From Pseudomonadota bacterium (GTDB taxonomy: Bacteria > Pseudomonadota > Gammaproteobacteria > Burkholderiales > Burkholderiaceae_C), in contig JAFEEH010000262.1 in the NCBI GenBank assembly GCA_018241185.1, positions 1 to 38,295 on the forward strand: a DNA stretch of 38,295 bases, read 5' to 3'. The position numbers were made by a program, and so were the translations under genes. Below the pieces are notes generated by a model. That model had not been told where the DNA came from. It did not search any database and saw only the letters and a list, made by a program, of their open reading frames with translations. Shown piece by piece: positions 6,352-28,616 of the stretch (position 1 is the first letter of the stretch; every line of letters starts with the position of its first letter).

Positions 6352-7275
6352 TCAGGCCGGCGCGGCACGCCGCAGCAGCGCGGCATAGCCCGGCTCCGTC
6401 GCCATGCGCGGCAGCACGCCGCCATCCCGCAGCAGCCGGTGCGCCTTCGGCAGGTTCCAGCACGGGATCGCCGTGAACATGTGGTGCTCGCAGTGGTAGT
6501 TGACCCAGTAGGGCGCGACCAGTGCACGTTCGACAAGGCCGGCGTGCGTGGTGCGCGCCTGGCGCAGCGGATCGGCCTCGTTCTGCGCGATGAGCGCGTG
6601 CTCGGCGATGTTGCGCACCCGGCTCACCAGCGGCAGCCAGGTCGCCATCGGCAGCAGCCACATCAGCAGCCATGCCCACCACAGCCCGGCGAGGGCGAAG
6701 GCCGCCAGGCCCAGGCCGTTGGCGACGAGGAAGCGCCGGTCCTTGCGCAGCTCGGCCCACAGCACCGGCGCCCACGGCGTGCCGGCAGGCCGTGCGCGCA
6801 GCGCTTCGCCATAGTGGCCGAAGCGCTGCTTCCAGAAGGTCTGGCCCGTCAGGTCGCGCGCCACCTTGCGCCACAGCGACGCGCGCGTGATGGGGAAGGG
6901 CGCCGACAGCACCAGGTCCGGGTCCTCGGTCTGCTGCACGAAGCGGTGGTGCTGCAGGTGGTAGGGGCGGTAGGCCGTGATCGTCGGCGAACACAGCCAT
7001 TCGCCCACCCAGTCGTTGATGCGCCGGTCGCGGTGCAACACCGCATGCGCCGCGTCGTGCATGAGGATGAACAGGCCCAGCTGCCGCGCCCCGACGATCA
7101 GCACCGCGAGAGGAATCGTCACCGGCCACAGCACGCCCATGGCGATGGCCAGCCCGCTCACGCCCCAGCAGTGCGCAATTAACCAGAGGCCACGCCACGA
7201 CGAGCGCGCCGTCAGCGCCTGCCATTGGGCGTCGGTGAAGAAATCCTGAGGTCGGGCGCGAAGGGCAGCGGCCAC
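6352..7275 (-). CDS. Membrane fatty acid desaturase
   Basis: A 307-residue membrane di-iron desaturase. All three histidine boxes are visible: HDAAH (about residue 73), HLQHHR (about 110) and HCEHH (about 263), the last with the spacing expected of acyl-lipid desaturases. Hydrophobic segments lie between them, for example GLAAFALAGLWWAWLLMWLLP. The start is taken as the GTG at 7273-7275 because CAGGAG lies six bases upstream; an ATG 60 bases further up (7335) lacks a good ribosome site. It would introduce a double bond in a membrane lipid acyl chain, or hydroxylate or desaturate a related substrate, using O2 and an electron donor. No partner gene is adjacent. It is full length for the family. 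Confidence 0.85.
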   Translation of the reverse strand: MAAALRARPQDFFTDAQWQALTARSSWRGLWLIAHCWGVSGLAIAMGVLWPVTIPLAVLIVGARQLGLFILMHDAAHAVLHRDRRINDWVGEWLCSPTITAYRPYHLQHHRFVQQTEDPDLVLSAPFPITRASLWRKVARDLTGQTFWKQRFGHYGEALRARPAGTPWAPVLWAELRKDRRFLVANGLGLAAFALAGLWWAWLLMWLLPMATWLPLVSRVRNIAEHALIAQNEADPLRQARTTHAGLVERALVAPYWVNYHCEHHMFTAIPCWNLPKAHRLLRDGGVLPRMATEPGYAALLRRAAPA

Positions 7276-7385
7276 GGGGGGCTCCTGAAGGGGGAGGGGA
7301 CGTACCAGTGTGCGCCGCGCGCTGCGCCTGCGCATCGGGCCGAGCCCGCAATCGTTGTTGCCCGGCGCTGCTCCTGGTCTTGCTC

Positions 7386-7404
7386 CTCTCCCCCCTGGGG
7401 AGAG
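7386..7404. terminator. GC-rich inverted repeat downstream of the GST gene
   Basis: CTCTCCCC-CCT-GGGGAGAG is a perfect 8-bp inverted repeat with a 3-base loop. It lies between the end of the minus-strand GST gene and the minus-strand desaturase. There is no clear U-tract, so it could be a terminator or simply a dispersed repeat; a related element lies at 25311-25399. Confidence 0.35.
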
Positions 7405-7449
7405 GCCGGCTGAGGGGCAGTGCCCCCCGCCCTCAACCCTTCACTACGA

Positions 7450-8157
7450 CTACTTCGGCGCCACCGGAATCTGCAGCCCCCGCTCCACCGCCGGCCGCGC
7501 CACGAAGGCGGCGAGCACGCGCGCCACGTTCTTGAACTCGTCGAAGCCCACCAGCTCGCGCGCCTCGTAGAAGCCGATCAGGTTGCGGATCCACGGGAAG
7601 GTTGCGATGTCGGCCACCGTGTACTCGGTGCCCATGATCCAGTCGCGGCCCGCCAGGTGCTTGTCGAGCACGCCCAGCAGGCGCTTGCTCTCGTTCACGT
7701 AGCGGTCGCGCGGGCGCTTGTCCTCGTAGTCCTTGCCAGCGAACTTATGGAAGAAGCCCAGCTGCCCGAACATCGGCCCGATGCCGCCCATCTGGAACAT
7801 CACCCACTGCAGCGTGTGCCAGCGCCCGGCCGCGTCGGCGGGAATGAAGCGGCCCGTCTTGTCCGCCAGGTACATCAGCATCGCGCCCGACTCGAACAGC
7901 GCCAGCGGCTCGCCGCCCGGCCCGTCGGGGTCGATCATGGCCGGGATCTTGTTGTTGGGGTTGAGCGAGATGAACTCGGGCGAGAGCTGGTCGTTCTTGC
8001 CGAAGTCGATGCGGTGCACCTCGTAAGGCAGCCCGCACTCCTCCAGCATGATCGACGCCTTCACGCCGTTGGGCGTGGGCAGCGAATACAGCTGGATGCG
8101 CTCGGGGTGGGCGGCGGGCCATTTCTGGGTGATGGGGAAGTCGGAGAGGGTGGGCAT
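7450..8157 (-). CDS. Glutathione S-transferase family protein (YghU/Ure2p-like)
   Basis: A 235-residue protein starting MPTLSDFPITQKWPAAHPER. AAGGAC precedes the chosen ATG; further in-frame ATGs lie upstream at 8190 and 8244. The N-terminal thioredoxin-like domain contains LYSLPTPNGVKASIMLEE, with the TPNG glutathione loop seen in Ure2p/YfcG/YghU enzymes, then NPNNKIPAMIDPDG with the cis-proline and LFESGAMLMYLADKTG, the glutathione gamma-glutamyl site. The C-terminal helical domain includes YTVADIATFPWI (N-capping box). Such proteins have disulfide-reductase or transferase activity in the cytoplasm. The gene is intact, and no substrate can be inferred from its neighbours. Confidence 0.88.
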   Translation of the reverse strand: MPTLSDFPITQKWPAAHPERIQLYSLPTPNGVKASIMLEECGLPYEVHRIDFGKNDQLSPEFISLNPNNKIPAMIDPDGPGGEPLALFESGAMLMYLADKTGRFIPADAAGRWHTLQWVMFQMGGIGPMFGQLGFFHKFAGKDYEDKRPRDRYVNESKRLLGVLDKHLAGRDWIMGTEYTVADIATFPWIRNLIGFYEARELVGFDEFKNVARVLAAFVARPAVERGLQIPVAPK

Positions 8158-8425
8158 GGGGGTGTGGTCCTTGGGTGAGGTGTGGGGCATTGTGGCGTGG
8201 GCCGTTTGCCGATGCACAGGCCGGGCCGTCGAGCGGGCTGGCATGCATGCGTGGCCCGATACGCCCTACATTTCGATGCTCGTACCTGGATCGCCAGAAC
8301 CGCCGGTTCGCCCGCCGTGATCTACAACGGCAAGCGTGCCGGGTTTGGCGGAATTTTTATACCAGGATGCTTGAACAGTGAGACGGGTGGAAAGCCAGAC
8401 TGCAAGCCACTTGGAGGGGAAATCG
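8158..8425. other. Intergenic stretch at the left edge of the cassette island
   Basis: This 268-base gap upstream of the GST gene has no convincing gene. GC content drops from about position 8350 onward. No attC half-site (RYYYAAC) was found here, so an upstream cassette or classical attI cannot be shown. The promoter of the minus-strand GST gene is presumably within it. Confidence 0.5.
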
Positions 8426-8488
8426 ATGACGAGAATATCCGGCACCGTCCAGCTTATCCCGCAGGTTTCGCGGAATACATTACGTTAG
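8426..8488 (+). CDS. Possible 20-codon leader ORF ahead of the first cassette
   Basis: An ATG at 8426 follows a strong ribosome site (GGAGGGG, spacing about 6). It opens a 20-codon frame, MTRISGTVQLIPQVSRNTLR, whose TAG stop lies inside the cassette boundary GTTAGCC (8484-8490), 15 bases before the CHAT start codon. It could be a translated leader raising expression of the first cassette gene, as ORF-11 of attI1 is known to do in class 1 integrons. The analogy is inference, and the ORF could be fortuitous. Confidence 0.3.
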   Translation: MTRISGTVQLIPQVSRNTLR

Positions 8489-8490
8489 CC
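8484..8490 (+). mobile_element. Left boundary of gene cassette 1 (GTTAGCC core site)
   Basis: GTTAGCC resembles the integron R' core GTTRRRY with one mismatch. Its reverse complement, GGCTAAC, is exactly the R'' half-site found at the end of the same cassette (9140-9146). A cassette's start and its own R'' are expected to be complementary, because both belong to one attC when the cassette is circular. This makes the boundary convincing despite the mismatch. Confidence 0.7.
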
Positions 8491-8503
8491 ATCAAGGACA
8501 CAC

Positions 8504-9145
8504 ATGCGACTTGCCGAACTTTTCGAACCACAGCAGCCAACCCCACGAAAGAGCAAGGCAGACACAGTTGCGCAAGTGTTCATCATTGAATCGCTGGAAC
8601 TTGTTGATGAAAACAAGGAGAGGCGAGAGGGAGCTGTACTCGCCTCTGTCTTGAAGATGTGCGGCAAGAATCCCCTGTACTACTACATACGAACAAAGGC
8701 GGAACTGGAACACATTGCTAAGGAGTTTGAGGCGTCTGGATATCGTTACCTGCACATTTCCTGTCACGGGGGAGTTGGCACACTCGAAACGACACTCGAC
8801 TCTGTTACCTACCAGGAATTTGCAACGATCTTCAAGGGGAAACTCAAGGACCGCAGGTTGTTTGTCTCAGCCTGCAGTGCCGGCAATGAGCTCTTCGCTG
8901 AGGTTGTCGGAGGAAAGAACAAGGAGCTAATTTCGATTGCAGCATCTGCTACCGACATCCGGTTCGACCACGCCGTCGCCTTCTGGACTTCGTTCTATGT
9001 CAAGACGTTCTCGCTGAATGCAAAGTCAATGAATTCAGCACGCATCGCTGAAGTTGCTAGGCCGCTCGCCGCGTTGTTTGCGGCGCCTCTACACCTGTCG
9101 AAGCGCGCCAATGGCGCTTGGGTCCACGAGGTAATTGATGGCTAA
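8504..9145 (+). CDS. Compact CHAT-domain (caspase-like) protease, cassette 1
   Basis: A 213-residue protein with start MRLAELFEPQQPTPRKSKAD, preceded by AAGGAC five bases upstream. The core matches the CHAT caspase-like fold. A strand and turn YLHISCHGG carries the likely catalytic His (H88), and LFVSACSAGNELF carries the likely nucleophile (C124). A third strand, ISIAASATDIRFDHAVAFWTSFY, follows. There is no TPR, effector or membrane domain, so this is a bare protease domain, much shorter than TPR-CHAT proteins. CHAT proteases in bacteria are linked to regulated cell death and antiphage systems such as gasdermin activation and Craspase; the target here is unknown. The TAA stop lies within the attC R'' site. 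GC content is far below the flanks, consistent with horizontal transfer. Confidence 0.75.
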   Translation: MRLAELFEPQQPTPRKSKADTVAQVFIIESLELVDENKERREGAVLASVLKMCGKNPLYYYIRTKAELEHIAKEFEASGYRYLHISCHGGVGTLETTLDSVTYQEFATIFKGKLKDRRLFVSACSAGNELFAEVVGGKNKELISIAASATDIRFDHAVAFWTSFYVKTFSLNAKSMNSARIAEVARPLAALFAAPLHLSKRANGAWVHEVIDG

Positions 9146-9208
9146 CAAGTCGCTCGAGGCGACTCGCGCCGGAAAGCCGCCGCTCGCGGCTCAGCTTGGA
9201 CGTTAGGC
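9140..9208 (+). mobile_element. attC recombination site of cassette 1
   Basis: This 69-base site runs from GGCTAAC (R'', 9140-9146) to GTTAGGC (R', 9202-9208). Between them are two inverted repeats, GTCGC-TCGAG-GCGAC and AGCCGC-CGCTC-GCGGCT, giving the folded single-strand structure expected of attC. The CHAT stop codon lies in R''. The expected cut is between G9202 and T9203, which starts cassette 2. Confidence 0.75.
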
Positions 9209-9241
9209 GTCCCGGCAACTCCGGAGTCGTACATTTGCCGC

Positions 9242-10456
9242 ATGAACGACGACTACGAGTACTTCAGGAACAAGAGGCCCGATCGGGTCTATCTGAGCCG
9301 CTCGCTTGCGCAGAAGCAGTACCGGAACGACGAGAGCGGACAGGTGCAGGAGTTCGAGCGCCCCTTCAGGGTCGTATCGAAGGTGGTTGACTGCGCTGAG
9401 TCTCACCAATTTTTCAAGGACGGCAAGCAGATCTCCCTGCGCATCACCGACGGTGCTCGCCAAGAGATTGTGGCCAAGTTCTACGAAGACACCCGAAGCG
9501 TCTTCACGCTGCAGATCCAGCGCTATACGGTGGAGAGCGGCTCACCGCACAACACGTACTTCACCTTCAGTGGCGAGGAAATCGCCACCCTCTATAACTT
9601 CCTGCGAAACATTGCGGCTCTACCGCTTCGCGATGGCCAAAGTGCGAAGCTCGATGATCGCTTTGTCTCCAGCCTCGTACTCACGCGCGAGCAAGCGCTC
9701 GACCTTCTTGCCGCCCAACCTGGTCTAGCGGAAGAGTTGCTTCGCACGAAGGTTTCCGCGCGCGATGTCGCCGAACTTGGCCATCGACGTGCGCAACTCA
9801 CGGAGTTCGCCCAACTTCTCGAAGACCAGGTGTACTTCGAGGCAAAACGGCAGAGCCTGGGCGCCAACAAGGGGCCCGAGGCGGTCTGGCAAACGTTTTT
9901 TGAGTGCAACACCTGGATCTTCGGATACGGACTGAACTACGTGCTCAACTCGCCCCTTGATGGCGCGAAGCTCGAGACTGCCGTGAGAGGTCACGACTTC
10001 CTTGGCTCGGGCAAGCGCGTGGACGCACTGCTGAAGACTCAAGGTCTAGTTAGTGCGCTGTCGTTTGGCGAGATCAAGACTCACAAGTCAGTCCTGCTCA
10101 AGCCGGTCGCCCAGCCATATCGAAAAGAGTGCTGGCAAGTGTCAGATGAACTGGCCGGCGGTGTTGCGCAGGTCCAGCGTTCTGTTCAAGCTTCGTTGGC
10201 AAACATCCGCTCCAAGATTGAATTGAAGGACGCGAGTGGTGCGCCTACCGGTGAGACGCTGTTCATGTACCAACCAAGGTCATTCCTCGTCATTGGTTCG
10301 CTCTCGGAGTTCCATGTGGCCCAAGGCATCAATGAGGAGAAGTACTCGTCCTTCGAGCTATTCCGTCGAAGCCTAAACGCTCCCGAGATTGTCACCTTTG
10401 ACGAGTTGTACGAGCGCGCCAAGTACATCGTTGAGAGCACTGGCGCCGCGAAGTGA
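9242..10456 (+). CDS. Shedu (DUF4263) antiphage nuclease, cassette 2
   Basis: A 404-residue protein beginning MNDDYEYFRNKRPDRVYLSR. The first 200 residues are a variable domain of mixed strands and helices. The C-terminal nuclease domain has the Shedu pattern: GPEAVWQTFFECNTWIFGYG (E213), GKRVDALL (D261), LSFGEIKTHK (E277 and K279, the PD-(D/E)XK core), then WQVSDELAGGVAQVQRSVQ and the ending FDELYERAKYIVE. Shedu proteins are single-gene antiphage nucleases whose N-terminal domain senses infection. All expected catalytic residues are present, so activity is plausible. No good ribosome site sits directly upstream; GGAG lies about 17 bases away. The TGA stop is followed one base later by the attC R'' half-site of cassette 2. 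Confidence 0.85.
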   Translation: MNDDYEYFRNKRPDRVYLSRSLAQKQYRNDESGQVQEFERPFRVVSKVVDCAESHQFFKDGKQISLRITDGARQEIVAKFYEDTRSVFTLQIQRYTVESGSPHNTYFTFSGEEIATLYNFLRNIAALPLRDGQSAKLDDRFVSSLVLTREQALDLLAAQPGLAEELLRTKVSARDVAELGHRRAQLTEFAQLLEDQVYFEAKRQSLGANKGPEAVWQTFFECNTWIFGYGLNYVLNSPLDGAKLETAVRGHDFLGSGKRVDALLKTQGLVSALSFGEIKTHKSVLLKPVAQPYRKECWQVSDELAGGVAQVQRSVQASLANIRSKIELKDASGAPTGETLFMYQPRSFLVIGSLSEFHVAQGINEEKYSSFELFRRSLNAPEIVTFDELYERAKYIVESTGAAK

Positions 10457-10457
10457 C

Positions 10458-10500
10458 GCCTAACCCTTCGCTCGAGCGGACCTCCACTAGGAAGGCACCT
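10458..10500 (+). mobile_element. 5' half of attC of cassette 2 (3' half not recognised)
   Basis: GCCTAAC at 10458-10464 is the exact reverse complement of GTTAGGC at 9202-9208, as expected for R'' of the Shedu cassette. The following bases CCTTCGCTCGAGCGGACC are typical of a widespread attC family that yields spurious ORFs reading PNPSLERTST. No convincing GTTRRRY partner was found within about 140 bases. A weak candidate is GGACGCTTACG near 10570, so the site may be decayed or recombined. Confidence 0.6.
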
Positions 10501-10716
10501 TGGCCGCAAGCCAATCAAGCCACTCATCCGTCTCACAGCCAAGACGCCTCGCCGGCGGCGGACGCTTACGATCAGCCGGATGATGTTCCATCGATCAAGT
10601 ACGCGATTCCGCTGCTGCGAGCTGCTCTCGAAAGAAAGAATGGCATCTAGCCAGTCTCTTGAAACAAGTCGTTTGGTCTGGCCGCCGTTCGCGGATCCTT
10701 TTCAAAGTTGGCTTCG
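10501..10716. other. Spacer with attC-like remnants, no convincing gene
   Basis: An open frame at 10453-10650 begins with residues derived from attC and has no ribosome site, so I do not call it a gene. Bases 10651-10716 hold another degenerate palindromic area (CTGGCCGCCGTTCGCGG and AAAGTTGGC) that could be a decayed attC end before the next gene. Confidence 0.4.
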
Positions 10717-11013
10717 ATGAAGAAGCTCTTGCTGCTCTCTGCTCTCGCCGTTGTTGCTTGTTCCGACGCCGCGCCGGAGACGAAGACTATTCTGGTGCTG
10801 CCAGATGGAACATACCGGTTCAATGGAGTGGCTATGTCATTCGCTGATTCGCGCACATTGCTCGGCGACTCCGCGTTGGTCCAGGTCAACATCAAGGGCT
10901 GCCCTCGAACCCGAGAGGAGGCAGTTCTCAAGCTACTCAGGTCGCTTAGAAGCAATGGTTATTCGCGGATTGCGTTCGAAACTGGAAGCGCCGATGCGGC
11001 CTGTCCGCCCTAG
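10717..11013 (+). CDS. Small putative lipoprotein, unknown function
   Basis: A 98-residue protein starting MKKLLLLSALAVVACSDAAP. The N-terminal Lys pair, hydrophobic core and AVVAC lipobox with Cys15 predict a lipoprotein signal peptide and export to the periplasm. The mature part has DGTYRFNGVAMSFADS and a helical KLLRSLRSNGYSRIAF, which recalls periplasmic proteins with a small alpha/beta domain of the ExbD/TolR or cassette-encoded type. I do not assign a family. GC content is below the chromosomal average. Position after the Shedu cassette, on the same strand, suggests it is or was a cassette, but its boundaries are not clear. Confidence 0.6.
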   Translation: MKKLLLLSALAVVACSDAAPETKTILVLPDGTYRFNGVAMSFADSRTLLGDSALVQVNIKGCPRTREEAVLKLLRSLRSNGYSRIAFETGSADAACPP

Positions 11014-11121
11014 CGTGTTCCCTTCCAAAGCGGGGCAATCAGCACGTGTTCGGGAATGCATCAGTTCATCTGGGCACGTTAGCGCTTCTTGGTAAGTTCG
11101 CCGTAGGAAAGCTAAGTCGTC

Positions 11122-11598
11122 GTGCCTCACGCGCCACACATCGCCACCCTTGCCGAGTATTTCCGCATCGGCTTGACCGCAGGCCTTCTTCTACCAGAAG
11201 AGGCATCGAACTGGGCCATTTCAGAGATCGCTCGCCTGGAAGCTCCGCCCTACGAGTTGATCGAGGTGTCCTACGCCAAGACACCGCTCGACGCCATTGC
11301 AGCCCTCGCTTCAGTTCAAGGCGAAAGAGACAGGCAAGTGGCCGGCGCTTGGGCGCTGGCGCGACTGCGTGAGTCCCTTCGCGGCCCCGACTTCGATGTC
11401 CACCTGGCAGCGCACCTAGCCATGCGCATCGTTCGAGCCGCGGAGTTCGGCGACGACATCTACTACCGCTTCGACATGATCGAAGATGAAGCCTCCCTTG
11501 CACTCACCGGCGCCCACGGCACGTTGGAAGATTGCCGGACGCACTTGCTCAATGAACTTGCTTGCTATCCACTGCCGCCCGTAAGTCGCAGTGTCTGA
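11122..11598 (+). CDS. Hypothetical protein in the cassette island
   Basis: A 158-residue, mainly helical acidic protein starting at a GTG (MPHAPHIATLAEYFRIGLTAG). AGGAAA lies about 13 bases upstream, so the start is uncertain. It includes EEASNWAISEIARLEAPPYELIEVSYAKTP-like helices, a central ALASVQGERDRQVAGAWALARLRESL, and an ending DCRTHLLNELACYPLPP. I recognise no domain or catalytic motif. A degenerate core-like GTTAGCG lies about 40 bases upstream, and GTCTGAC (one mismatch to R'') follows near the stop, so it may be a decayed fourth cassette. Coding potential is supported by full-length openness and moderate GC. Confidence 0.55.
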   Translation: MPHAPHIATLAEYFRIGLTAGLLLPEEASNWAISEIARLEAPPYELIEVSYAKTPLDAIAALASVQGERDRQVAGAWALARLRESLRGPDFDVHLAAHLAMRIVRAAEFGDDIYYRFDMIEDEASLALTGAHGTLEDCRTHLLNELACYPLPPVSRSV

Positions 11599-11736
11599 CG
11601 CTCCGGCTCCACATGTGCGAACCGGATTGGGGTCAGGCAGCGGGAGCTGGTGTCCCTGAAGTTGATCTGCCACGCGGCTCGCGACAAAGAGCCCACGCCA
11701 CAATCGACCCACCACGACGATCCCGAGGAGTTGCCC

Positions 11737-12102
11737 ATGTTCGATCACATAGGTTTCGGCGTCACGAACCTGGCCGAGAGCAAGGCGTTCTACCTGCAGG
11801 CGCTGCAACCGCTGGGCGTCGAGGTGGCGATGGAAGGCCCGTATGGCGTGGGGCTGGGGCGCAAGCACAAACCCTCGCTGTGGCTTTCCGAAACCAAGGA
11901 GCGGCCTGCCCATCTGCACCTGGCCTTCGTGGCCGACACCCGCGCGCAGGTCGATGCCTTCTACGCCGCCGCACTCGCAGCGGGCGGCAAGGACAACGGC
12001 GCCCCGGGCATCCGGCCGCATTACCACGCGAATTACTACGGCGCCTTCGTGCTCGACCCGGACGGGCACAACGTCGAGGCCGTCTGCCACGGGCCGGCCT
12101 GA
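11737..12102 (+). CDS. VOC (glyoxalase/bleomycin-resistance) family protein
   Basis: A 121-residue protein starting MFDHIGFGVTNLAESKAFY at the ATG preceded by GAGGAG. It has one complete VOC unit: FDHIGFGVTNLAESKAFYLQAL at the start with a metal-binding His (H4), PAHLHLAFVADTRAQVDAFY in the middle, and YYGAFVLDPDGHNVEAVCH at the end with the typical DPDGHNVE metal glutamate. The family includes lactoylglutathione lyase-like, dioxygenase and resistance proteins; residue positions support metal binding but not a specific reaction. It marks the return to chromosomal high-GC DNA right of the cassette island. Confidence 0.85.
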   Translation: MFDHIGFGVTNLAESKAFYLQALQPLGVEVAMEGPYGVGLGRKHKPSLWLSETKERPAHLHLAFVADTRAQVDAFYAAALAAGGKDNGAPGIRPHYHANYYGAFVLDPDGHNVEAVCHGPA

Positions 12103-12131
12103 CGCCCGCCGCCGGCACCTTCGCGCGCCCC

Positions 12132-12593
12132 ATGCAGTGGCTCGAACACAGGATTCCGCCCCCGCTCGTGGGCGTCCTCGTCGGTGTCGCCATGTGGCTG
12201 CTCGCCCCGCTCGGCTCGGCCTTCGCGCTCGATGCGGCCACGCGCTACGCCATCGCCGCAGCCCTGTTCGTGATCGCGATGACCTTCGACATCGGCGGCC
12301 TGCTTGCATTCCGCGCGTCCCGCACCACGGTCAACCCGCTGGCGCCTGCGCGCGCCTCGTCACTGGTCACCGGCGGCATCTATCGCATCACGCGCAACCC
12401 GATGTATGTGGGCTTCGCGCTGCTGCTGACGGCCTGGGCGGTGGTCCTCGCCGCATGGCCGGTCTTCATCGGGCCGGTGGTCTACGTGCTCTACATCACG
12501 CGCTTCCAGATCGTGCCTGAGGAGCGTGCGCTCGCGCAGCTGTTCGGCGAGTCGTACACGCAGTACACGCGGCGGGTGCGGCGCTGGCTGTGA
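12132..12593 (+). CDS. Isoprenylcysteine carboxyl methyltransferase / PEMT-like membrane protein
   Basis: A 153-residue integral membrane protein starting MQWLEHRIPPPLVGVLVG. Four hydrophobic segments are visible. The C-terminal signature GIYRITRNPMYVGFALLLTAW, then VPEERALAQLFGESYTQYTRRVRRW, is the AdoMet-binding region of ICMT/phospholipid methyltransferase-like proteins. Length is typical of bacterial members, whose substrates are mostly unknown. The gene starts 30 bp after the VOC gene and probably shares its transcript. Its 3' side carries a perfect 14-bp hairpin within a dispersed repeat. Confidence 0.85.
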   Translation: MQWLEHRIPPPLVGVLVGVAMWLLAPLGSAFALDAATRYAIAAALFVIAMTFDIGGLLAFRASRTTVNPLAPARASSLVTGGIYRITRNPMYVGFALLLTAWAVVLAAWPVFIGPVVYVLYITRFQIVPEERALAQLFGESYTQYTRRVRRWL

Positions 12594-12671
12594 GGTCGGC
12601 GCAGTGTCGAGCCGCGGGCCGCGCAGGCCCGCGCCGCGCGATGTCGATCCGACTGCGAGAGTGGCCACCCA

Positions 12672-12747
12672 GCCGATCGTCACGAATGTGACGAATTCGG
12701 CTGCAGCGCCCGCCAGCCGGGCGCTGCAGCCCGATTGCACTTTGCCC
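12672..12747 (+). repeat. Dispersed hairpin repeat, copy B
   Basis: The clearest copy of the four. It starts CGTCAC-GAAT-GTGACG (inverted repeat) and continues with a perfect 14-bp stem, GGCTGCAGCGCCCG (12699-12712), pairing with 12718-12731 around the loop CCAGC. It ends CGATTGCACTTTG. It lies between convergent genes, where such a stem could terminate transcription from both sides. Confidence 0.8.
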
Positions 12748-12759
12748 GTCGAGGCGTCT

Positions 12760-13380
12760 TCAGGCTGTGGGCCGCACGCGCCGACGCGCCAGCGCCATCA
12801 GCATCCAACCCGCCAGCCCGAAGGTGAGCGCGATGCCCACCGCATACACCGCCACGCCGCCGTAGCCGCCCACATTCGCCGGGTTGAGGAACGGGTACGG
12901 ATACCACCCCACGGCCGCGCCGCGCAGCATCGTGTAGACGAGGTAGAGCATGGCCCACGCCAGCACCCAGCGCAGCGGCCGCAGGCCCACGGCGGGCCGC
13001 GGTGGCCACAGCAGCCAGTCGAGCACCAGCACGACGGGCATCACGTGGTGCAGCACCGAGTTGACCCAGGGGCGCAGCGCGCCGAGGTCGACGTCGCGCA
13101 GCAGGGCGACGAAGACCACGCCCACGACCAGCATGCAGGTGGCCGCCACGGCGCGCAGCGTCTCGAAGGCGGGCGACGCGCGTGCGCCGGCCCATTGCCG
13201 CAGCGCACCGGCGACGAGCACGCCGGCGGCGATCAGATTCGACAGGTTGGTGAAGAAGCTGAAGAAGTTCGGCACGCTGAACTTCAGGCCCACGTGCAGC
13301 CAGAGCTGCCAGCCGATGGCGACAAGGGCCAGCAGGCCGAACGCGAGGCGCAACACGGCGGTGAGGGGCGTCGGGGTCAT
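12760..13380 (-). CDS. Pr6Pr family membrane protein
   Basis: A 206-residue protein with about six membrane helices, starting MTPTPLTAVLRLAFGLLALV. The family features are visible: FFSFFTNLSNLIAA after the first helix, VNSVLHHVMPVVLVLDWLLWPP in the centre, and WYPYPFLNP followed by a glycine-rich last pair of helices. Pr6Pr-type proteins (FAR-17a/AIG1-like) are six-helix proteins of largely unknown role; some relatives in eukaryotes hydrolyse unusual lipids. The gene is the last in a minus-strand series after the feruloyl-CoA synthase-like gene, 61 bp away, but functional linkage is not evident. Confidence 0.8.
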   Translation of the reverse strand: MTPTPLTAVLRLAFGLLALVAIGWQLWLHVGLKFSVPNFFSFFTNLSNLIAAGVLVAGALRQWAGARASPAFETLRAVAATCMLVVGVVFVALLRDVDLGALRPWVNSVLHHVMPVVLVLDWLLWPPRPAVGLRPLRWVLAWAMLYLVYTMLRGAAVGWYPYPFLNPANVGGYGGVAVYAVGIALTFGLAGWMLMALARRRVRPTA

Positions 13381-13441: not shown

Positions 13442-15250
13442 TCAGCGGATCACCGCCGCATCGCCCTCGTCGAACAGCCGCGCCACGGCCTCTGCCCGCC
13501 GCGCCAGCACGGCCCGCTGGTTGATGTAGCCCTTGTCGGTGATCTCGCCGCTGTCCGCGTGCGGCGGGGCGTCGAGCACCAGCGCGCAGACCGGGCAGCG
13601 GGCCGAGCCCAGCCCCTCGTCGCGGCGGCGGCGCAGCACGGTGCGCAGGGCCTCGGCCAGCTTGTCGGGCTCCGCCGCGCCCTGCGGGCTGGCAAAGACC
13701 AGCAGGCCGACGGCCTCGCGGTCGTGGCCGGCGATGACGAGGTCCTGCACCCAGGGTGCGAGCTGCGACACCAGTTCGATGCGCAGCGGGCCGACCGACA
13801 CCCAGGTGCCGCTGCCGAGCTTGAAGTCCTCGGCCACACGGCCGTCGAAGACGATGCCGCGCTCGGGGCGCTGGTCGTCCACCAGCCGGCCCGCGTCGCC
13901 GATGCGGTAGTAGCCTTCGGCGTCGAAGGCGGCCGCGGTCTCGCGCGGCTGGTCGCGGTAGCCGGGCGTCACGGCCACGCCCTTGATGCGCATCTCCAGC
14001 TTGCCGCCGTTGGGCACGAAGCGCACCTCCATGCCGGGCAGGGGGTTGCCGACGCAGCCGGCGCCGTCGAGCTGCCAGTGCGCCGAGGTGATGGCCGGCG
14101 CGGTCTCGGTGCAGCCCCACGAGGTGGTAAGCCACAGCGGCCGGCCCGGCCGCACGCGCTCGGCGACGGCCTGCAGCCGCTGCCAGGTGCTGGGCGACAG
14201 CGCGGCCGCCGCGTAGAAAGCCAGGCGCAGGCGCGCCAGGATGTCCGCCGCCAGCGCCGCGTCGGCCTCCATCAGCGGCAGCAGCATGTCGAAGCCGCGC
14301 GGCACGTTGAACCACAGCGTGGGCTGCACCTCGCGCAGGTTGCGCGCCGTCTTCTCGACCAGGCCCGGCGCGGGCCGGCCCTCGTCGATGTAGAGCGCGC
14401 CGCCGTTGGCGAGCACCAGGTTCAGGTTGTGGTTGCCGCCGAAGGTGTGGCTCCACGGCAGCCAGTCGACCAGCACCGGCGGCTCGTGCGGCTGCGCCTG
14501 CAGGAAGGGCCAGGCCTGCGCCATCATCTGCTGGTTGGCGCAGAGCATGCGGTGCGTGTTGATCACGGCCTTGGGGTGGCCGGTGGAGCCCGAGGTCAGC
14601 AGGTACTTGGCATGCGTCTCGGGCGTCACGGCCTCGAAGGCGGCCTGCACGGCGGGCGTCTCGGCAGTGGCGCGCAGCGCAGCGAAGTCGATGCCGCCGG
14701 GCCGGTCGCCGGCGTGGGCGCTGAACACGCAGGGCACGCCCAGGTCGCAGGCGGCGATCGCCGGGCCATACACCTTCGCGTCCGATGCATAGATGAGCGC
14801 CGGCCCCAGCAGCTGCAGCATGCCGCGCAGGCGGCGGTGGTCCTGCGTGAGGCGCGAGTACGCGCTCGACAGCGAGCAGGCCGCGCGGCCGATGTGCATG
14901 GCCGCGAGCATCATCACCGCGTGGTCGATGGCGTTGTCCGAGAGGATCGCGATCGGCCGCCCGGTCGGCAGCTGCATGTCGAGCAGCGCCTGCGCGACGC
15001 GGCCGATGTCTCGGCGCAGTTCGCCATATGTCAGGCGCCGCCAGTCGCTGCCGTCGGCCGTGCGCTCGGCCAGGGCCAGCGCATCGGGCGTCTCGCGCGC
15101 CCAGCGCTCGATCCATTCGCCCACGCAGCGCGCATAAGGCCGCAGGGCCACCGGCGAGCGCAGCGAAAAGCTGCCGTCGTCGAAGTCGATGCGCACGGTG
15201 CGCGGCGGGGCGACCTGCGTGGGGTCGGCGAGAAAGTCGATGAGGGGCAT
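13442..15250 (-). CDS. Feruloyl-CoA synthase-like acyl-CoA ligase
   Basis: A 602-residue ANL-superfamily adenylating enzyme. The start at MPLIDFLADP (15250) is preferred to an upstream in-frame start at 15304, although neither has a strong ribosome site. Motifs include LLTSGSTGHPKAV (217-229, phosphate-binding P-loop), WLPWSHTFGGNHN, TTSWGCTETAP, YYRIGDAG and the C-terminal lysine in EITDKGYINQ (near residue 573). The SHTFGGN motif and overall length match Fcs, which converts ferulate, coumarate and caffeate to CoA thioesters with ATP. Downstream enoyl-CoA hydratase-lyase (ech) and vanillin dehydrogenase are absent. Neighbours are a binding protein, dehydrogenase and BKACE, so the true acid may differ. 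Confidence 0.8.
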   Translation of the reverse strand: MPLIDFLADPTQVAPPRTVRIDFDDGSFSLRSPVALRPYARCVGEWIERWARETPDALALAERTADGSDWRRLTYGELRRDIGRVAQALLDMQLPTGRPIAILSDNAIDHAVMMLAAMHIGRAACSLSSAYSRLTQDHRRLRGMLQLLGPALIYASDAKVYGPAIAACDLGVPCVFSAHAGDRPGGIDFAALRATAETPAVQAAFEAVTPETHAKYLLTSGSTGHPKAVINTHRMLCANQQMMAQAWPFLQAQPHEPPVLVDWLPWSHTFGGNHNLNLVLANGGALYIDEGRPAPGLVEKTARNLREVQPTLWFNVPRGFDMLLPLMEADAALAADILARLRLAFYAAAALSPSTWQRLQAVAERVRPGRPLWLTTSWGCTETAPAITSAHWQLDGAGCVGNPLPGMEVRFVPNGGKLEMRIKGVAVTPGYRDQPRETAAAFDAEGYYRIGDAGRLVDDQRPERGIVFDGRVAEDFKLGSGTWVSVGPLRIELVSQLAPWVQDLVIAGHDREAVGLLVFASPQGAAEPDKLAEALRTVLRRRRDEGLGSARCPVCALVLDAPPHADSGEITDKGYINQRAVLARRAEAVARLFDEGDAAVIR

Positions 15251-27671: not shown

Positions 27672-28616
27672 ATGACTGAGCGCAACGAGGCGCTGCTGAC
27701 GGCGCCGGAGGAGGGCGCCACGGCGGCCAACGAATCGGACGAGGGCCGCGATGCGCTGCTGGCGGCGCTGGGCGAGCGCGTGCGCAGCCTGCGCGCGCGC
27801 CGCGGCCTGACGCGCAAGGCGGTGGCGCTGGCGGCCGGGGTGTCGGAGCGGCACCTGGCCAACCTCGAATACGGCATCGGCAACGCGTCCATCCTCGTGC
27901 TTCAGCAGGTGGCCGGCGCACTGCACTGCTCGCTGGCCGAACTGGTGGGCGACGTCACCACCAGCTCGCCGGAATGGCTGCTGATCCGCGAACTGCTGGA
28001 GCACCGCTCCGAGGCCGACCTGCGCCGCGTGCGCGTCGCCATCGGCGAGCTGCTGGGCACCGCCGCCGTCGACCCGCTGCGCCACCGGCGCATCGCGCTC
28101 GTGGGGCTGCGCGGCGCAGGCAAGTCCACGCTGGGGCAGATGCTGGCCGACGACCTGGAACTGCCCTTCATCGAGCTCAGCCGCGAGATCGAGAAGTTCG
28201 CCGGCTGCAGCGTGCGCGAGATCCACGACCTGTACGGCACCAATGCCTACCGCCGCTACGAGCGCCGCGCGCTCGAGGAGGCGGTGCAGATCTACGGCGA
28301 AGTGATCATCGCGACGCCCGGCGGCATCGTTTCCGACCCCGCCACCTTCAACGAGCTGCTCGCGCACTGCACCACCGTGTGGCTGCAGGCCGCGCCCGAG
28401 GAGCACATGGGCCGCGTGGCCGCCCAGGGTGACACCCGCCCCATGGCCGCCAGCCGCGAGGCGATGGACGACCTGCGCCGCATCCTCGACGGCCGCGCCG
28501 CCTTCTATTCGAAGGCGGACCTGCGCGTGGACACCAGCGGCAAGACCCTGCAGCAGGCCTTCGAGGCGCTGCGCACCACGGTGCGTGCGGCCATGGACGC
28601 CGAATCCCCGCGCTGA
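27672..28616 (+). CDS. boxR: Benzoyl-CoA-responsive regulator BoxR (HTH + shikimate-kinase-like)
   Basis: A 314-residue regulator starting MTERNEALLTAPEEGATAAN, after AAGGAC with spacing about 6. An upstream GTG at 27657 is less likely. Residues about 30-92 form an XRE-type helix-turn-helix (LTRKAVALAAGVSERHLANLE). A linker leads to a shikimate-kinase-like domain with the P-loop GLRGAGKST at 145-153, FIELSREIEKFAGCS and FGTNAYRRYER-like helices. This domain binds benzoyl-CoA rather than phosphorylating shikimate in characterised BoxR/BzdR proteins. BoxR represses box genes until benzoyl-CoA binds. It diverges from bclA and precedes boxC by 136 bp. Confidence 0.93.
   Translation: MTERNEALLTAPEEGATAANESDEGRDALLAALGERVRSLRARRGLTRKAVALAAGVSERHLANLEYGIGNASILVLQQVAGALHCSLAELVGDVTTSSPEWLLIRELLEHRSEADLRRVRVAIGELLGTAAVDPLRHRRIALVGLRGAGKSTLGQMLADDLELPFIELSREIEKFAGCSVREIHDLYGTNAYRRYERRALEEAVQIYGEVIIATPGGIVSDPATFNELLAHCTTVWLQAAPEEHMGRVAAQGDTRPMAASREAMDDLRRILDGRAAFYSKADLRVDTSGKTLQQAFEALRTTVRAAMDAESPR

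Follow-up and report, generated by a model that had tools for sequence, protein, structure and literature searches.

The stretch of DNA analyzed here, referred to as the window, is an entire contig of 38,295 nucleotides (C180) from a genome of 5.34 Mb in 269 contigs (G000). Between positions of about 8000 and 11500 its GC content dips to 0.55–0.59 against about 0.70 around, as had been predicted. The island of lower GC lies between two divergent chromosomal genes of the glutathione S-transferase (GST) and glyoxalase families (Table 1). A 23-nt inverted repeat (8189–8211 and 11682–11704) brackets the island, lies upstream of both flanking genes, and is conserved in the sister loci L068 and L070; it may serve the two genes jointly as a promoter or operator. 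Neither a sigma-70-like promoter (looked for at 8100–11800) nor an Rfam match (7500–12500, E ≤ 1) was found.

Table 1. Features of the island and its flanks, in window coordinates
Feature	Position	Strand	Basis or remark
GST-family gene	7450-8178	-	left flank of island
Left part of island	8202..8483	.	absent from sister species; attI of the sisters missing here
GTTAGCC core, left end of cassette 1	8484..8490	+	sequence
P0001 gene, 213 aa, putatively caspase/CHAT-like	8504-9145	+	sub-threshold Pfam match, His/Cys columns, cassette homologue
attC1 (R'' GGCTAAC 9140-9146, R' GTTAGGC 9202-9208)	9140..9208	+	covariance model R1, subtype profile, identity to G111 attC
SduA gene (P0002), 404 aa	9242-10456	+	PADLOC, Pfam, PDB 8ti8 alignment, attC-flanked homologue
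65-aa ORF, starts in attC2, stops in attC3	10453..10650	+	ORF list
attC2, truncated: 5' half (R''-L'') of long attC	10458..10520	+	R1, subtype profile, G197 similarity
attC3, degenerate	10645..10713	+	identity count, subtype profile
98-aa ORF, probably cassette 4 gene	10717..11013	+	ORF list
158-aa ORF, cassette 5 gene	11122..11598	+	homologue as cassette in G174
Glyoxalase-family gene	11737-12102	+	right flank of island

The original prediction read 8484–10464 as two integron gene cassettes with a CHAT protease and a Shedu nuclease as their products. Most of what it observed was borne out; the parts that were not are attC2, the antiphage match of both products and the end of the island at 10464. 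As predicted, the GTTAGCC core that opens cassette 1 and the R'' of attC1 are exact reverse complements, with a match that reaches 12 nt, and so are the R' of attC1 and the GCCTAAC at 10458–10464. Both ORFs lie on the plus strand, with a stop codon in R'' or one base before it. A search of the whole genome with TIGR02249 gave no integron integrase match on the window's contig, again as predicted, and no IntI was found by tblastn in 7001–13000. The pairing of cores had been taken as evidence of an integron; the pairs are indeed exact, but such pairing is weak evidence alone, because it is uncommon in a real array. In the G120 array, 3/23 R'' sequences pair completely with the start of their own cassette and 1/23 with the R' in their own attC, the means being 5.96 and 5.43 of 7; because match ends were off, as many as four of these 23 rows are out of register.

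In order to score attC sites, we used a covariance model (R1) built from 31 attC of 11 arrays in 10 genomes, all taken from intI-adjoining arrays of other genera of the family. The 110 distinct candidates found at 27 array loci were reduced to 92 by a length filter and the removal of three prefixes, to 34 by clustering, and to 31 by taking out the 69-nt subtype that resembles attC1. The candidate finder demanded complementarity, so that attC pair counts are biased towards structure. In an unfiltered search R1 scored attC1 at 40.5 bits (E 6.9e-8), the runner-up among the 20 matches listed in the 38,295 bases being a site with 14.9 bits at 28171–28211. The site is identical at 62/69 positions to an attC repeated in the intI-linked array of G111, a genome of another genus. 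A profile of the subtype (17 members) placed attC1 at 9142–9207 with 61.5 bits (E 2.8e-18); its top three matches in the window are all on the plus strand inside the island, and the fourth has 4.1 bits. The best scores in the controls were 11.1 bits in 200 Markov-shuffled islands and 4.8 bits in eight sister loci (146,406 bases, a background other than L068, L069, L070 and L072). Since their profile scores exceed both of these, attC1 and attC3 are above chance. A finder of the strict pattern RYYYAAC/GTTRRRY returned nothing in the window and overlooked attC1 because the R'' of this site is GGCTAAC. attC1 is a genuine attC. The gene of cassette 1 thus ends, as expected for an integron gene cassette, in an attC in which R'' pairs with R' and L'' with L'.

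The canonical bottom-strand fold of attC1 has 13/15 R/L pairs, two being broken. Its predicted pfold of 5e-5 is the lowest of 18, the 17 members of the subtype spanning 1e-4 to 0.72. The best structure predicted for the bottom strand is not the canonical hairpin, and its stability is no better than that of shuffled sequences (z -0.85). When the site is modeled as in the excised circle, with R' taken from 8484–8490, the predicted pfold is 0.0054, within the range of the subtype. These predictions fit a site that would have been functional at the entry of the cassette and would be a poor one now.

The assignment of P0001 to the CHAT family, which had been made as a firm one, was not supported. 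The protein scored 13.2 bits against the Pfam CHAT model (PF12770; cut-off 24, E 0.062), below what Pfam accepts; PADLOC gave no match, and a profile of three sequences found none among PDB chains at E ≤ 1. Only half of the claim that both products match antiphage families can therefore stand, that is, the half concerning Shedu. His88 and Cys124 are invariant in 3/3 sequences (84 and 42% identical to P0001) and lie in HG and SxC motifs, which we take to be the dyad motif of CHAT/caspase-type enzymes. P0001 shares these motifs with CHAT/caspase-like proteases and, unlike them, is a stand-alone protein of 213 aa for which no partner gene was seen. With moderate confidence, we regard the protein as caspase-like. 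Comparison with the relative from Tepidiphilus (L112, 84% identity) gave dN 0.10 and a saturated dS of 3.3; therefore, P0001 was kept by selection at some point in its history. The most likely identity of P0001 is that of a small CHAT-type protease, caspase-like and with a His/Cys pair, on which purifying selection acts.

P0001 is rare. It occurs in 2/349 sampled genomes of the family (its own and G120, 45% identity) and in 1/369 genomes of the class (its own). No relatives were found in phages, nor in viral_contigs by two peptide patterns, and there was one among 72,556 plasmid records. The G120 relative is an integron cassette: its ORF (L082, 11265–11945) starts 10 bases after one attC (11196–11255) and ends one base before another (11946–12005) in an array of 24 attC sites that adjoins a full-length intI, with all 315 model positions matched. 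A site of 17.3 bits lies about 270 bases downstream of the Tepidiphilus relative. An Xre/MbcA/ParS antitoxin and RES toxin pair (L112, 4233–5313) is located just upstream of that relative. The relative from Aromatoleum toluolicum (L113) is 88% identical over the first 120 residues and then has an insertion. The sequence GTTAGCCAT precedes both the P0001 gene and its L113 homologue, and the sequence further upstream differs. Among the literature matches listed, "integron" and "CHAT domain" were not found together, which does not prove absence.

The Shedu identity of the second product was confirmed, and the family call is strong: SduA matches PADLOC PDLC00394 with E 3.7e-151 over 387/392 positions and Pfam SduA_C/DUF4263 (PF14082) with 88.4 bits (cut-off 27, E 7.4e-25). 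Its match to the Shedu SduA structure PDB 8ti8 (E 2e-6) covers residues 212–397 and omits the N-terminal half. Residues D261, E277 and K279 (D...E-x-K) are aligned with those of 8ti8; in chain 8ti9, A occupies the position of this E. These are presumably the catalytic residues of a PD-(D/E)xK nuclease. By analogy with its family, SduA is most likely a functional PD-(D/E)xK nuclease with phage DNA as its target; given the full-length PADLOC match and the intact residues, the protein probably works if expressed. Relatives of SduA are present in 5 other genomes of 349. The one in G052 (47% identity) lies between two attCs, at 13709–13773 and 12450–12537, with scores of 34.1 and 16.0 bits; a truncated intI, present as an N-terminal fragment, is about 0.6 kb away. 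For the four others (L119–L122) no attC was found at E ≤ 1 within 1.5-kb flanks. Joint action of P0001 and SduA is supported by nothing; they are two independent cassettes.

The covariance check envisaged in the original prediction located a site after the P0001 gene and failed to find a full one after SduA. At 10458–10520 R1 gave 12.6 bits (E 0.37); the subtype profile matched 10458–10481 with positions 1–24 of 69 only (10.8 bits, E 0.019), and neither detected a matching L'/R' half, so the Shedu gene is followed by the 5' half of an attC and cassette 2 is not intact. Among the 200 shuffled islands, one scored higher (11.1 bits) than this half-site, which by the shuffle control is not above chance. 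Over its first 52 nt, attC2 is 81% identical (E 5e-7) to the beginning of a stretch in array L103 of G197 that resembles a long attC with GTTAGG at its end.

Although 10464 had been proposed as its end, the island continues to about 11598, with a degenerate attC3 and more genes, or gene remnants, of cassettes. Missed by R1, attC3 has 45/69 identities, with 38 at the next best place on the plus strand, and was found by the subtype profile at 10646–10709 (19.4 bits, E 4e-5). The 65-aa ORF between attC2 and attC3, which has no Pfam or PADLOC match, probably corresponds to the 3' end of a cassette 3 gene that has been truncated. The product of the 98-aa ORF appears to start like a lipoprotein signal; its best Pfam match (ExbD, E 0.098) is below the cut-off, and PADLOC gave none. 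The 158-aa product is 49% identical over 155 aa to that of L094:19606–19142 in G174, which is followed by an attC (19135–19034) and is the first cassette, nearest to intI, of an array of 37 attC sites.

We compared the site with that in three sister species (G071, G254 and G250), in which GST is 98, 98 and 96% identical to that of the window. They share the left flank of the window to 8201–8202 (the alignment ends at 8201 for L068 and L069 and at 8202 for L070; at 8224 in L068 with looser scoring) and the right flank from 11510–11518, so that the 3' part of the 11122–11598 gene is kept in all three (from 11510 in L068 and L069 and from 11518 in L070). Their insert of about 1.76 kb carries two other ORFs (193 and 199–223 aa) and an attI that resembles the attI next to the broken intI in the window's genome. 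A 29.8-bit attC is present in L068 and L069, and a search of L068 and L070 for IntI gave no match. Consistent with the original prediction, no homologous chromosome examined carries both P0001 and SduA. Because the sisters share the flanks and the 3' end of the 11122–11598 gene and hold other cassettes, we see here one integron site with cassette turnover and not a recent single insertion. The site is thus occupied in four species of the genus with differing cassettes; three of them keep attI without intI, and in the window's genome attI is missing from the site too.

We therefore consider the island at about 8202–11598 to be, with a probability of about 0.93, a decayed chromosomal integron between the GST and glyoxalase genes, whose cargo includes a likely working Shedu nuclease and a likely CHAT-type protease. 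The reading as integron cassettes is supported by the score of attC1 with an independent model, the intI-linked homologues and the turnover at the same locus in three sisters. Homologues of three island genes occur as integron cassettes, namely those of 8504–9145 (in G120), of 11122–11598 (in G174) and of SduA (in G052, by the truncated intI); a Paracoccus relative (L178) without an attC at E ≤ 1 counts against it. An IntI would have captured single-gene circles through attI × attC recombination, and the integrase would have been lost afterwards. Deletions and point mutations would then have fixed and eroded the array, with attC1 mutated, attC2 halved and attC3 degenerate, and the cargo would now act like ordinary chromosomal genes. 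What stands of the original interpretation is the integron cassettes without a local integrase and the Shedu nuclease; a firm CHAT assignment, the intactness of both cassettes and an island boundary at 10464 do not.

In R1 scans of the genus attC sites at E ≤ 0.01 were found in 12/15 genomes; 150 first-look candidates were scored per genome, so these attC counts are lower bounds. An intI above the family cut-off is present in only 2/15 genomes, cut by a contig end in both (G071 C47:1 and G254 C5:104142, where the contig ends within the N-terminal part of the gene), and the adjoining arrays are unassembled for this reason. The one intI found in the window's genome is frameshifted, lying in three frames on contig C106, where the integron is cut off 114 bases past its attI. 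All 15 genomes have one weak match to the integrase model (77–82 bits, positions 241–303), which is probably Xer. IntI fragments are well supported on other attC-bearing contigs (G251 C12, G260 C186, G253 C56 and G177 C14) and occur, more weakly (E about 1e-10), on G177 C6 and G259 C3, making six contigs; the query set, like that of the tblastn search at 7001–13000, consisted of longest ORFs, some of which, such as L021, may not be IntI. An attI was found in 6/15 genomes: G000 and G251 have two copies apiece, and G261, G250, G071 and G254 have a single one.

Several of these sites may be described individually. The second attI of the window's genome (C145, 51869–51959; L115, L123) is 89% identical over 64 bases to the attI by the broken intI. 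One cassette and an attC of 52.7 bits come after it, and the 12.9 kb covered there gave no match to IntI. The attI sites of G251 (C12:31183–31244 and C13:73484–73542) and G261 (C2:249592–249649) are in genomes without an intI above the cut-off, and G251 C12 keeps an N-terminal fragment of intI (residues 2–74) near its attI. An 8.3-kb contig of the window's genome (C24, L124) has two attCs at its start (44–103 and 535–595, 54.8 and 23.8 bits), which possibly belong to the array adjoining the broken intI.

One can imagine that attI platforms without an integrase are satellites that were loaded in trans by one IntI located elsewhere until it was lost, the Shedu and protease cassettes of the window being satellite cargo; we regard this as unlikely. 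Still less likely is a clean integrase-less CALIN of two intact, re-mobilisable defence cassettes, the form in which the array had been predicted. Its R''/R' cores are exact, attC1 is recognised by the model and the pfold predicted for the attC of the excised circle falls inside the subtype range, but attC2 has its 5' half only, the pfold of attC1 in place is the lowest in the set, a degenerate attC3 and more cassettes follow downstream, and the only intI found in the genome is frameshifted. By the rule of at least two attC sites for a CALIN, as given in the part of PMC12444791 used here, the window has one attC by R1 and a second, attC3, by the subtype profile alone (E 4e-5). We rejected as highly improbable that the 23-nt inverted repeat marks the ends of a transposon or genomic island: the repeat does bracket the island, with 87% complementarity, but in L068 and L070 the same motif pair, ATTGTGGC/GCCACAAT, which occurs just twice in each 19.9-kb locus, stands at the same positions around other cargo, a position upstream of two divergent genes suits a shared promoter or operator element, and target duplication was not seen by eye.

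The decayed integron that we favor is an arrangement of an already known kind, since integron-borne defence cassettes, Shedu included, and CALINs have been published. In Xanthomonas, as described in the sections of PMC12444791 that we draw on, CALINs are found at fixed chromosomal loci and Shedu is among the integron defence cassettes. The island resembles these sedentary chromosomal integrons and CALINs in its lost or broken intI, conserved chromosomal locus and defence genes; it differs in the bacterial family, in the one full attC left and in the different cassettes held by sister species at the site. Vibrio and mobile integrons carry defence cassettes as well, according to the excerpt of PMC12409362 considered here, in which the integron antiphage cassettes of Darracq, Getz and Kieffer (2025) are described (they are also cited in PMC12444791). 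Small single-gene defence cassettes in attC arrays are common to both cases, whereas integrase and phage tests are available there and the present island, which has no integrase, is known from sequence alone. According to PMC2426708, roughly one intI gene in three is a pseudogene.

P0001 is a candidate for phage-defence testing because it is rare and under strong purifying selection relative to its nearest relative. Since sister species hold other cargo at the same site, capture, turnover and decay can be traced at one locus. The island would add to the documented cases in which defence genes entered an integron and became fixed in the chromosome after the integrase had died.
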